Positions 47,274 to 51,530 of a stretch of 64,000 bases of DNA are shown here, in pieces; position 1 is the first letter of the stretch, and every line of letters starts with the position of its first letter. Both the position numbers and the translations under genes were made by a program. The notes under the pieces are model-generated. The model did no database searches and was not told where the DNA came from. It saw only the letters and a program-made list of their open reading frames with translations. The stretch comes from Mameliella sp. MMSF_3455 (GTDB taxonomy: Bacteria; Pseudomonadota; Alphaproteobacteria; Rhodobacterales; Rhodobacteraceae). The stretch spans positions 62,001 to 126,000 of the forward strand of contig NZ_JASHJL010000005.1 in assembly GCF_030733205.1 (NCBI RefSeq). The letters are read 5' to 3'.

Positions 47274-48650
47274 TCACAACACCCGCAGCTGCGGAGCGCG
47301 CTTCACCGGACGGGCGCCCAGCATCAGCTCGCTCAGCGCCCAGACCAGCGCATCCACCCGGTCCGGGCTGCCCGACCCGTGATAGCCATTGGGTGTCATC
47401 AGGCACATCTGCGCTTCCAGCTCTGCCAGCCCGACGGAATGCTTGATCCGCCCCTGTTCATAGAGCGCCGCCACCGGCTCGGCCCGCAGCGATTTTCCCT
47501 GCGAGGCATGCACCGACTTGTAGGCGACATAGGGATCGACCTGCCGCAAGGTGGCTTCAACCATGGCGCCGCCCTGGTTGACCTCGGCCACCACCCGGTC
47601 GGCCTGCCAACGCGCCGCCACCTCGATGACGGCTGTCGCCCAGCCGACCGGCGACAGCCCCTGGACAGAGGCATCTTCCAGCACATAGGCCCGCCGCTCG
47701 CGCGGGTCTTCGCTGTCGACCAGTCCCGCCACGACGATTCCGCAGGCATCTGCCCGCGCCCCGGCGCCTGCCGGCGGATCTACGGCAACCACGACCCGGT
47801 CCATGTCGGGCAACCGCCCGGCGCGCGCACCGTCCAGCATCTCCCGTGTCCACAAGGCCCCGTCCACCTGGTCCAGCAACACGCCGTCCAGTTCCTGCAG
47901 GCCAAGCGACTGGCCCTCATAGCGTGCCCGCACCTCGTCGAGGAAGGTCTCGGCCAGATGCGCCTGATTGGCTTCGGTCCGCGCATGGGTCGATACGGTC
48001 GAAGGCAAGTCCAGCAATTCCTTCAGCACACCCACGTTGCGCGGCGTCGTCGTCACGCAGACCCTTGGCGTCTCCCCCAACCGCAGCCCGAACTGCAACA
48101 TGTCCCAGACATCCTGCGCCTTTTTCCACTTGGCGAATTCATCCGCCCAGGCGCCATCGAACTGCGGCCCGCGCAGCGCCTCCGGGTCCTGTGCCGAAAA
48201 CACCATCGCTTCGGCTCCGTTGGGCCAGACCAGCGTCCGCCTCGTCGAGATGTATTTCGGTTTCCGGTCAGGCGGTGTGCAGTTCATGATCCCGCTATCG
48301 CCGTAGATCATCACCTCGCGCGCCTGGTCATAGGTCTCGCCGATCAGCGCGATGCGCCGGCAATGCCCCTTGTCCAGCGGCTTGGCACCCTCGACCTGAG
48401 CCCTGACCCATTCCGACCCGGCGCGGGTCTTGCCCGCGCCGCGCCCGCCCAGGATCACCCAGGTGCGCCAGTCGCCCTCGGGCGGCAACTGGTGGGCATG
48501 GGCCCAGAACTCGAAAAGGTAGGGGAGCGCCATGCGCTCCCCCTCGGACATTTCATTCAGGAACCTGTCCTTCAGAACAGCAGGCCCGGAGGCTATCCAG
48601 GCGGCACCCGACCGCAAGTCGGGCTGCCTCGAGGTCGAGTCCGTAGACAT
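47274..48650 (-). CDS. GTA g2: large terminase (DNA packaging ATPase/nuclease)
   Basis: 458 residues. Walker A GGRGAGKT near residue 68 and a Walker B-like WADEFAKWK near 158 for ATP-driven packaging; the nuclease domain contains VVVAVDPPAGAG near 275 and a C-terminal DRVDALVWALSEL with acidic residues. The ATG at 48650 has AGGGAATC upstream and lies inside the end of g1. It packs about one head of random host DNA in known GTAs. Confidence 0.95.
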   Translation of the reverse strand: MSTDSTSRQPDLRSGAAWIASGPAVLKDRFLNEMSEGERMALPYLFEFWAHAHQLPPEGDWRTWVILGGRGAGKTRAGSEWVRAQVEGAKPLDKGHCRRIALIGETYDQAREVMIYGDSGIMNCTPPDRKPKYISTRRTLVWPNGAEAMVFSAQDPEALRGPQFDGAWADEFAKWKKAQDVWDMLQFGLRLGETPRVCVTTTPRNVGVLKELLDLPSTVSTHARTEANQAHLAETFLDEVRARYEGQSLGLQELDGVLLDQVDGALWTREMLDGARAGRLPDMDRVVVAVDPPAGAGARADACGIVVAGLVDSEDPRERRAYVLEDASVQGLSPVGWATAVIEVAARWQADRVVAEVNQGGAMVEATLRQVDPYVAYKSVHASQGKSLRAEPVAALYEQGRIKHSVGLAELEAQMCLMTPNGYHGSGSPDRVDALVWALSELMLGARPVKRAPQLRVL

Positions 48651-48927
48651 CGCTGATTCCCTCTTCCTTTCGGATGATCTCTTCAAGTTCCAACTCCGTT
48701 TCCCGGGCTGCACGCAGCCAGTACCTCAATTCGCCCAGGGCGCTGCTCGCCTCGGACTTCTTCGCCACATCCCCTCTTTTCGCCCTGTCCTGCAGTTCGC
48801 CTATCTGGTCGACGAGTTCCGCAATCGTGGCCGTTGCCCGGTCACGCTGCCTGCGCAGACGCTCACACCGCTCGCTGGCGATGATGACGATGCGCGGTTC
48901 TTCTTGTTTCTGCTCTGCACTGCTCAT
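48553..48927 (-). CDS. GTA g1: small-terminase-like protein
   Basis: 124 residues, mostly helical with a coiled coil (RATATIAELVDQIGELQDRA, then RETELELEEIIRKEEG). The ATG at 48927 has AAAGG upstream; a GTG 9 bases earlier is less likely. Overlaps g2 by 98 bases. In R. capsulatus g1 acts as a small terminase that does not select specific DNA. Confidence 0.85.
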   Translation of the reverse strand: MSSAEQKQEEPRIVIIASERCERLRRQRDRATATIAELVDQIGELQDRAKRGDVAKKSEASSALGELRYWLRAARETELELEEIIRKEEGISDVYGLDLEAARLAVGCRLDSLRACCSEGQVPE

Positions 48928-48978
48928 GCTCGACACCTTTTTTGCCTGTAGGTTGCCCCTCCTGGGTGGCAGGGCACG

Positions 48979-49011
48979 AAAAACGGCCCCAAGGGGTTCC
49001 CCCGGGGGCCG
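48979..49011 (-). terminator. intrinsic terminator/attenuator candidate in the GTA leader
   Basis: On the minus strand CGGCCCC (49011-49005) pairs with GGGGCCG (48990-48984), with an inner GGGG/CCCC, and is followed at once by TTTTT (48983-48979). It lies 52 bases before the g1 ATG and after the promoter candidate at 49041-49069. No minus-strand gene lies upstream, so it must act on GTA leader RNA. Confidence 0.55.
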
Positions 49012-49040
49012 CCTGCCGTACCTCGTCCAGCATGTCTGAA

Positions 49041-49069
49041 ACCATACGTTCGACCGCGCGCTGGGTCAA
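49041..49069 (-). promoter_or_regulatory. sigma70-like promoter candidate of the GTA cluster
   Basis: TTGACC (49069-49064) and TATGGT (49046-49041) with a 17-base spacer. Transcription would begin near 49034, giving a leader of about 107 bases that includes the hairpin at 48984-49011. Confidence 0.45.
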
Positions 49070-49110
49070 TCGGGGGCGCGGACGCAAGCATCTGATTTCA
49101 TTTACATTTA

Positions 49111-49126
49111 TGAACCCATGATTAAC
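49111..49126. promoter_or_regulatory. CtrA-like site TGAA-N7-TTAAC
   Basis: TGAA CCCATGA TTAAC differs from the CtrA consensus TTAA-N7-TTAAC by one base. It sits 42 bases upstream of the GTA -35 candidate and 66 before the aminotransferase ATG. CtrA is an established regulator of GTA in Rhodobacteraceae, though direct binding here is inference. Confidence 0.4.
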
Positions 49127-49192
49127 GCGTGGAGAAGCGACTTGCCGCGCCATGACAGCTCTGGCAAGACATTTCCAAGAAAGGACAACACC

Positions 49193-50383
49193 ATGGCCCA
49201 GCTCTCTTCCCGTATCACCACGCTCAACGAAGGCGGCTCCGACGGGTGGGAGGTGTTCTACCGTGCCCGCGCGCTCGTCGCCGCGGGCGAGCCCGTGACC
49301 GAACTGACGATCGGCGAACATGACATCGGCACCGATCCCGCGATCCTTCAGGCGATTCATGACGCCGCCCTTGGCGGTCACACGGGCTATGCGATGGTCC
49401 CCGGCGTCTCTGCCCTGCGCGAGGCCGTGGCCAGCCGCATCACCCAACGCACCGGCGTGCCAACCACGCCCGACAACGTGCTCATCACCCCCGGCGGGCA
49501 GGCGGCGCTCTTTGCGGCGCACATGGCCGTGCTGACCCCCGGCGATGCCGCGCTCTACATCGACCCCTATTACGCCACATACCCCGGCACGATCCGCGCC
49601 GCCTCGGGCCGCGCGGTGCCCGTCGCCACGCGGGCCGCCGACGCATTCCTCCCGCGCGGCGACGCCATCCAGACCGCCGCCCGCGAGACCGGCGCCAAGA
49701 GCCTGCTGGTCAACACGCCCAACAACCCCACCGGCATGGTCTATCCCCGCGACACGCTCCAAGAGATCGCGCAAGCCTGCACGGACAACGATCTCTGGCT
49801 GATCTCGGACGAGGTCTATGACACCCAGGTCTGGCAAGGCCAGCACATCAGTCCGCGCAGCCTTCCGGGCATGGTGGACCGCACGCTGATTGTCGGCTCC
49901 ATGTCGAAAAGCCACGCCATGACCGGGTCCCGCGCCGGCTGGATCGTCGGCCCGACAGAGGCCATCGACCGGTTGATCGACCTGGCCACCGCAACCACCT
50001 ACGGCGTGCCCGGCTACATCCAGGACGGCGCGCTCTTTGCACTGGAACAGGGCGCCGGGCTCGAGGAACAGATCGCAGAACCCTTCCGCCGCCGCCGCGA
50101 CCTCGCACTGACGGTGATCGAGGGGCAGTCCACGATCAAGGCCATCCCTGCGCAGGGCGCCATGTACCTCATGCTCGACATCCGCGCGACAGGTCTCTCG
50201 GGCCGCGATTTCGCCGAGGCCCTGCTGGACGATCACCGCATCGCCGTCATGCCGGGGGAAAACTTTGGCAAATCCGCCGCCGGGCATATCCGCGTGGCGC
50301 TGACCGTCGCGGACGACCGGCTAGTAGAGGCGTTGCAGACCCTCTGCGCCTTTGCCGAAACCCAGGCCCGCGCCCATGCCTGA
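49193..50383 (+). CDS. class I/II PLP aminotransferase
   Basis: 396 residues of the aspartate-aminotransferase fold. Seen: TPGGQAALFAAHMAV near residue 102, NTPNNPTGMVYP near 173, LISDEVYDTQVW near 204 (PLP-contacting Asp and Tyr), SMSKSHAMTGSRAGW near 236 with the Schiff-base Lys, and the C-terminal Arg region GHIRVALTVADDRL near 363. The ATG at 49193 follows AAAGGAC. It likely converts an amino acid to its keto acid; substrate not clear. Divergent from the GTA cluster. Confidence 0.87.
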   Translation: MAQLSSRITTLNEGGSDGWEVFYRARALVAAGEPVTELTIGEHDIGTDPAILQAIHDAALGGHTGYAMVPGVSALREAVASRITQRTGVPTTPDNVLITPGGQAALFAAHMAVLTPGDAALYIDPYYATYPGTIRAASGRAVPVATRAADAFLPRGDAIQTAARETGAKSLLVNTPNNPTGMVYPRDTLQEIAQACTDNDLWLISDEVYDTQVWQGQHISPRSLPGMVDRTLIVGSMSKSHAMTGSRAGWIVGPTEAIDRLIDLATATTYGVPGYIQDGALFALEQGAGLEEQIAEPFRRRRDLALTVIEGQSTIKAIPAQGAMYLMLDIRATGLSGRDFAEALLDDHRIAVMPGENFGKSAAGHIRVALTVADDRLVEALQTLCAFAETQARAHA

Positions 50384-50868: not shown

Positions 50869-50902
50869 AAAAATGCCGCCCCCGGTGTCCCGGAGGCGGC
50901 AT
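50869..50902 (-). terminator. intrinsic terminator of ndk
   Basis: ATGCCGCC / GGCGGCAT stem with an inner CCGG, followed on the minus strand by TTTTTCG. It lies 24 bases after the ndk stop; it is also close to the convergent TfoX-C gene. Confidence 0.7.
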
Positions 50903-50925
50903 CAATTTCAGAACTCGACGACGGC

Positions 50926-51348
50926 TTAGCCGACCAGTTCGAGACCCGAGAAGAAGAAGGAGATCTCTTCCTTGGCGGTTTCCGGCGCGTCGGAACCGTG
51001 GACCGAGTTCTCACCCACGGATTCCGCGAACTCGGCGCGGATGGTGCCCGGTGCGGCATCGGCGGGGTTGGTCGCGCCCATGACTTCGCGGTTCTTCAGG
51101 ATCGCGCCTTCGCCTTCCAGCACCTGCACGACGACCGGCTCGGAGGCCATGAATTCGCACAGTTCATCGTAGAAGGGACGCTCGGCGTGCACCGCGTAGA
51201 ACTGGCCGGCCTGCGCCTTGGTCAGCTGGATGCGCTTCTGCGCGATGATGCGCAGGCCCGCATCTTCGAACTTGGCGTTGATCTTGCCGGTCAGGTTGCG
51301 CTTGGTGGCGTCGGGTTTGATGATCGAAAGGGTGCGTTCGGTGGCCAT
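50926..51348 (-). CDS. ndk: nucleoside-diphosphate kinase
   Basis: 140 residues. It moves a phosphate between nucleoside di- and triphosphates through phospho-His117 in [11 protein letters not shown]-terminal [19 protein letters not shown] with Lys11, and [17 protein letters not shown] near 91, complete the nucleotide site. The ATG at 51348 gives the usual length. Confidence 0.97.
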
Positions 51349-51530
51349 GTCTGTCTTCCTCGCGTTTCGGGGCCGGTTCGCCCGGCCGAATTCTGCGCTG
51401 GCGCGTAGCACGCCCCCCTCGGCTTGAAAAGCCCTGACATGGATCTGCGGCCAAGGCGGACGGCGGGCTTGCGGATCGCTCGCCACGACGGGCTCTGGCC
51501 CCTCCCCGCGGCCTCTGCTACAGCCCCGCC

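Follow-up and report, generated by a model that had tools for sequence, protein, structure and literature searches.

The RcGTA-type gene cluster in the window (the whole stretch of 64,000 nucleotides that was analysed) is preceded by a leader in which a hairpin and a run of T residues closely follow a predicted transcription start, and comparison with other Rhodobacteraceae indicates that this element is very probably a conserved promoter-proximal terminator that terminates GTA transcripts. We observed the anatomy of this leader, its conservation, compensatory changes within its hairpin and the presence of a gafA gene; the conserved hairpin suggests that the known activator GafA may let RNA polymerase run past an early stop. 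Such a terminator, right behind the kind of promoter that GafA binds, would provide a substrate for the idea of GafA anti-termination.

The cluster lies on the minus strand, where open frames and Pfam matches identify g1, a large terminase (Terminase_6N/6C), a portal and an HK97-type capsid. The capsid is closely related to the R. capsulatus GTA capsid of known structure (6tb9, E 1e-167), the best-matching named terminases are those of Mameliella (95%) and, judged by its open frames, the cluster extends for about 14 kb from g1 on. The g1 start codon is either ATG 48927 or GTG 48936, and its product matched none of the Pfam or NCBIfam models at E 0.001. Before g1 come, in order, an IHF-consensus match, TTGACC, a 17-nt spacer, TATGGT, ATGCTGGACGA and the hairpin with its five T residues (table 1). 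The first-pass annotation had placed a TTGACC-N17-TATGGT promoter at 49069-49041 (TTGACC 49069-49064, TATGGT 49046-49041), and a simple promoter scan returned the same site; it had also placed a GC hairpin with TTTTT at 49011-48979 before g1, and we found the hairpin at 49012-48983 and the T-run at 48983-48979. It had stated further that no other minus-strand gene feeds into this point. The neighboring gene with a family match, an aminotransferase, is divergent; opposite to it, a 474-codon open minus-strand frame (48863-50287) crosses the GTA promoter and leader, but this frame has no Pfam match and is probably spurious, a by-product of the high G+C content. Farther upstream, a strong terminator-like site of 14 pairs (50872-50903, minus strand) lies just 3' of the nucleoside diphosphate kinase gene.

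Table 1. Features of the GTA leader and its surroundings in the window
Feature	Coordinates	Strand	Basis
Large terminase of the RcGTA-type cluster	47274..48653	-	Family match
g1, small terminase position, first gene of the cluster	48553..48927	-	Identity from its place before the large terminase
Possible small second hairpin, UGCCCU/GGGGCA, over a Shine-Dalgarno-like stretch	48954..48976	-	Fold; possible counterpart elsewhere
Longer hairpin, GGUACGG/UCGUGCC, enclosing the terminator	48973..49022	-	Fold
T-run TTTTT of the predicted intrinsic terminator	48979..48983	-	T in at least 90% in three columns of 107 leaders
Terminator hairpin, 8 + 4 pairs, dG -24.4 kcal/mol	48983..49012	-	Fold; covariation among relatives
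Initial transcribed element ATGCTGGACGA, conserved	49023..49033	-	GCTGGA positions 65-98% conserved
-10 element TATGGT	49041..49046	-	Sequence, scan, position frequencies
Spacer core CGCGCGGTC, candidate GafA C-domain (GafZ-like) element	49052..49060	-	Position frequencies in relatives
-35 element TTGACC	49064..49069	-	Sequence, simple promoter scan
Divergent aminotransferase upstream of the GTA promoter (stretch scanned, approximate start)	49154..50383	+	Family match
Nucleoside diphosphate kinase gene	50926-51486	-	Pfam NDK

Taken as a single sequence, the features of the window do not go beyond chance, and they go well beyond it once relatives are compared. A simple scan of 6 kb gave one promoter-like site (0.6 expected) and two terminator-like sites (3.9 expected), and over 17 kb there was one promoter-like site against 2.7 expected and 14 terminator-like sites against 11.6; the fold of the window's leader had a z of -2.76, with 3 of 200 shuffles as good. 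Since the single sequence stood hardly above chance, leaders were gathered from the Rhodobacteraceae: 80 named loci and 140 loci taken one per genus which, with the window, made 221. Twenty of these, in which a 50-mer was exactly present in a kept leader, were removed to leave 201 distinct leaders, the window included. The 140 genus-level loci came from 175 matching genomes; those left out lay too near a contig end, had internal stops (two), scored low (three) or were unlisted. R. capsulatus was sought through its capsid sequence and by two genus searches, which returned at most 90% identity.

A two-block matrix of the promoter and start region outscored all reverse-strand controls in 165 of the 201 leaders. 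This matrix had been seeded on sites with TTGAC and the search was therefore repeated without those columns; TTGAC was nonetheless exact in 146 of 149 leaders, and for this reason we call the -35 sequence both near-consensus and conserved. Conservation extends to the spacer (CGnaCGgTC), the -10 element (GTA) and the start (A[AT]GCT[GA]GAaGA). From the -10 spacing and the conserved A, transcription is predicted to begin at A49033 (+/-1); the interval from the -10 element to this predicted start is 106-119 bp ahead of ATG 48927. Farther upstream, 28 nt before the -35 element, is AATCAGATGCTTG (49085..49097, minus strand), an exact match to the IHF consensus and a putative IHF site. An exact match to the consensus at most 80 nt upstream, on either strand, occurs in 8 of 57 nearer leaders (window included) and 14 of 106 genus-level leaders, compared with 0.3-0.4% of shuffles and none in the next 80 nt (0/57 and 0/106); most leaders have no exact match. 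IHF co-activates the GTA of Caulobacter (PMC11150451).

Terminators were counted in the 163 leaders with a motif score above 0, the other 38 of the 201 being left out. By the criterion of a hairpin with dG < -12 followed by a T-run within the first 90 nt of the leader, a strong terminator is present in 130 of the 163, whereas 31 of 489 dinucleotide shuffles pass, as do 10 of 163 windows taken immediately 5' of the promoter; at a looser cut of -8, 132 of 163 pass and the opposite strand gives 11 of 163. The distance from the anchor to the first T of the run is 43-62 nt. The terminator is found in 97 of 107 leaders when the window is taken with 106 other genera (96 of 106 without it); the share drops to 33 of 56 among the motif-bearing leaders from nearer named relatives. 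In Paracoccus denitrificans and P. versutus the promoter is present, together with a hairpin and T-run read by eye.

The hairpin appears to have been maintained as a structure. Across the 107 leaders the letters of the stem vary and their pairing is kept, with 85.7% of cells paired versus 76.5% in shuffles; double changes that keep a pair, sought by aligning the leaders of relatives as the first-pass annotation had advised, occupy 89 cells versus 28.8 in shuffles, none of 500 of which reached that number, and the covariation score is 0.287, slid partners reaching at most 0.174. Three T columns are among those that are nearly invariant. Because RNAalifold predicted no pairs on the raw, gappy 107-row alignment, the structure was named from column statistics and then counted, so that these covariation figures refer to a structure chosen from the same alignment columns on which it was scored. 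That the terminator is placed to act on the GTA transcript itself, as had been proposed, agrees with its conserved location downstream of the predicted start. Loss of the hairpin in close relatives had been named as evidence to the contrary, and here the picture is mixed: three Mameliella leaders (L002, L003, L005) keep the terminator, whereas it is weakened in Antarctobacter (L004, -8.0) and no T-run passes in Pelagimonas (L006-L008 and L023), where the promoter motif is kept and three of the four loci fold more strongly than shuffles.

A regulator of fitting kind is encoded in the source genome, which has one GafA as judged by its architecture, a C-terminal DUF6456 domain with weak N-terminal helix-turn-helix matches below the Pfam cut-off. 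With the same Pfam model, DUF6456 was found in 178 of 198 genomes of the family and in a Caulobacter control genome, where the protein that carries it would be GafZ according to PMC9632790 and PMC11150451. In Caulobacter, anti-termination has been demonstrated for GafZ, whose homology is to the C-terminal half of GafA. Its putative element falls between -10 and -35; the protein moves along with polymerase and NusA/E/G and allows a fraction of the polymerase to read through terGTA and rrnB T1 (PMC11150451). R. capsulatus has the same kind of cluster and regulator as the window, and there GafA binding maps to 76-125 bp upstream of g1 (PMC6363796), while the C-terminal part of the protein binds, by EMSA, a fragment with the -35, -10 and start, and GafA is described as an activator working through RNA polymerase omega (PMC9638019). 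A possible unrecognised anti-termination activity of R. capsulatus GafA was raised in 2024 by the authors of the Caulobacter work (PMC11150451). The spacer core in the window matches the putative Caulobacter GafZ element in location and falls inside the R. capsulatus EMSA interval, and by this analogy the C-terminal domain of GafA may bind it.

We somewhat favor a GafA-dependent bypass of the promoter-proximal terminator as the best single explanation of this arrangement. RNA polymerase would initiate near 49033 from the near-consensus sigma-70 promoter and, if unmodified, would halt in vivo about 55 nt on, at the intrinsic terminator (48983-48979). The C-terminal DUF6456 domain of GafA would bind the conserved element between -35 and -10, and GafA, loaded onto the polymerase, would make it resistant to the leader terminator and to later ones and carry it past them; g1 and the rest of the ~14-kb cluster would then be transcribed. 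As far as its role can be inferred, the longer hairpin that encloses the terminator could form only after read-through. A near-consensus -35 element made the Caulobacter promoter independent of GafYZ and about sixfold weaker (PMC11150451). The Rhodobacteraceae promoter already has TTGAC, and a postinitiation step may therefore be needed to hold it off. A broader proposition, which we put forward tentatively and think possible though doubtful, is that the GTA switch in the Rhodobacteraceae operates at elongation and not at initiation: the promoter would fire in most cells to give an aborted leader of ~55 nt, GafA would be chiefly a processive anti-terminator, and the terminator would lie just after the start and not, as in Caulobacter, after the first gene.

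By analogy, the leader is laid out like the promoter-loaded anti-termination control of the Q/AlpA/GafZ kind. Two marks of such control are an intrinsic terminator between the promoter and the first gene, predicted here in the window and in the same 130 of 163 leaders, and a regulator of a known anti-terminator family in the same genome, here GafA with its DUF6456. The lambda PR'-tR'-Q system shares with it a promoter-proximal terminator, an anti-terminator loaded at the promoter and an operon behind; lambda uses Q, whereas the GTA leader would use a GafZ-type regulator. The lambda leader is the longer of the two. Anti-termination in the GTA of Bartonella is reportedly the subject of a 2025 eLife paper.

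A close parallel is the CcGTA of Caulobacter crescentus, with its related cluster, a homologous regulator and a putative element between -35 and -10; its operon has its own terminator, which is passed in part with GafZ in a complex with NusA, NusE and NusG (PMC11150451). The Caulobacter -35 is a degenerate AATCAT, as opposed to the TTGAC of the window type, and the CcGTA start codon lies at +251 with a repeat array after the first gene as terminator (PMC11150451), unlike the simple hairpin found ~55 nt after the predicted start in the window. GafA, moreover, is one protein, while Caulobacter has two, GafY and GafZ. In layout, AlpA and the alpBCDE operon of Pseudomonas aeruginosa come near: the AlpA element lies between -35 and -10, like the candidate in the window, and the alpB intrinsic terminator precedes the first gene, begins 54 nt after the start and, when removed, raised expression more than 28-fold (PMC7969949). 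The alpBCDE system is comparable, too, in its connection to ppGpp and in a lysis programme that only some of the cells use (PMC7969949). According to their respective authors, AlpA has no sequence homology to other anti-terminators (PMC7969949) and GafZ none to AlpA or Q (PMC11150451); the read-through with AlpA was measured, whereas that at the GTA leader is predicted. If the GafA-dependent bypass is real, GTA release would join AlpA-type self-lysis as a programme whose lethal operon an early terminator holds off.

In the open-access literature we found no report of anti-termination by a Rhodobacteraceae GafA and no description of a terminator in a Rhodobacteraceae GTA leader. Term searches of the main texts of PMC6363796 and PMC9638019 returned neither "terminator" nor "leader", and those two terms and "promoter region" are absent from PMC6854486; "terminator" occurs once in PMC9690577, in a reference, and anti-termination enters PMC11841831 only through Caulobacter work in its reference list.

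The most serious alternative, which we nonetheless consider rather unlikely, is that the hairpin blocks read-through from an upstream operon into the GTA genes and that GTA transcripts tolerate it. An mltG-like frame, recognized by motif, is the co-directional upstream neighbor in 87 of the 163 leaders. The terminator is present in 78 of them, and a further one within 160 nt upstream of the -35 occurs in just 13 of the 87. Beside a divergent aminotransferase the terminator is rarer (12/20 vs 78/87; Fisher p 0.003, ignoring relatedness). Since it is commoner behind a co-directional mltG, it may also, or only, block read-through. However, an element that served purely as an insulator should precede the promoter; this terminator sits downstream of the predicted GTA start, and so it should act on GTA transcripts too. 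It is, moreover, kept in leaders whose neighbor is a divergent aminotransferase: the window, L002, L003, L005, L010, L014, L015, L017, L018, L034, L035 and L040. The hairpin could serve both as a read-through block and as GTA control. The remaining 56 of the 163 leaders have neither an mltG nor an aminotransferase motif upstream, and their split by longest open frame (terminator in 18/23 and 22/33) is unreliable and was not used.

It is improbable that the hairpin is mainly a 5' structure which protects the mRNA or tunes g1 translation, the T-run being incidental. Of the 33 leaders that lack a strong terminator, seven do keep a strong fold (L006, L007, L023, L028, L079, L112 and L152; z -3.4 to -5.7), as does L177, where the promoter motif is doubtful. 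Many leaders also have a second hairpin close to the ribosome site of g1 (83/130 vs 227/650 shuffles, a weak excess); just after the T-run it perhaps masks that site, and its possible counterpart in the window is no better than shuffles (z -0.17). Protection, however, would not need conserved T columns, and three such columns rank with the most conserved positions of the 107 leaders, which argues against this reading. In L107, L116, L117, L153, L196 and others the second hairpin takes the form CUCGUGC-loop-GCAUGAG and abuts a GAGAGG-like stretch before g1.

More improbable still is a regulatory small RNA, namely the terminated leader of ~55 nt itself. Promoter and terminator would indeed delimit a discrete short RNA whose 5' end, A[AT]GCT[GA]GAAGA, is strongly conserved; but conservation at the start site suits contact with DNA or polymerase equally, and the letters of the hairpin vary. 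Rfam gave no match for the leader, with no leader or riboswitch in the window at gathering scores and none up to E 1 in 48900-49200, and none of the 16 sRNAs in Table 1 of a Paracoccus denitrificans sRNA paper could be placed at the GTA leader (PMC5107571).

The first-pass annotation had instead proposed ribosome-controlled attenuation, in which a leader frame from ATG 49033 decides between termination and read-through; this is scarcely credible, for neither the start codon nor the frame is conserved among relatives, and we rejected it. The anchor, which lies near the predicted 5' end, reads ATG in 83 of 153 strong leaders, but AAG (43), AGG (8) and ACG (8) replace it in 59, other codons being rarer; the 86 leader frames with a start codon stop within 15 codons (27), at 15-30 (18) or later (41), and the T-run falls equally in the three frames (44/44/40). 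In the window the frame is out of frame with g1 and part of the 474-codon antisense frame. What survives of the proposal is that conditional read-through is possible, the terminator being placed on the GTA transcript; as its agent, GafA-mediated anti-termination is proposed in place of the leader frame. The further suggestion that read-through could explain why few cells express GTA is a weaker link: the terminator would at most lower the leak and sharpen the threshold, and a published suggestion is quorum-sensing heterogeneity (PMC6363796).

The promoter-leader element looks particular to the Rhodobacteraceae in the sample examined, because both the motif and the excess of terminators were absent from 40 loci (of 47 with a related terminase, some of which may not be GTAs) of other alphaproteobacterial families: no promoter motif scored above 0, and terminators within 400 nt occurred in 8 of 40, near the shuffles (14/120). 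In the source genome a second GafA-type promoter was sought, and only the GTA promoter fits the pattern perfectly; two-mismatch hits numbered six, fewer than the 21 of a reversed-pattern control, and the one inspected (L225) had a promoter block score of 8.8 versus 33.1 for the GTA promoter, its frames suggesting no GTA gene by eye. Among the 38 family leaders lacking the motif, nine have a terminator in the interval -450 to -230 and one was too short to score. Some near relatives (L019-L022, L024, L025, L032, L041 and L042) have a related terminase and no GTA promoter motif above 0. One of these, L024, lies on a contig titled Enemella evansiae, which we take to be an actinobacterial name; this contig carries a terminase 70% identical to that of the window and is possibly mislabelled or from a mixed assembly.
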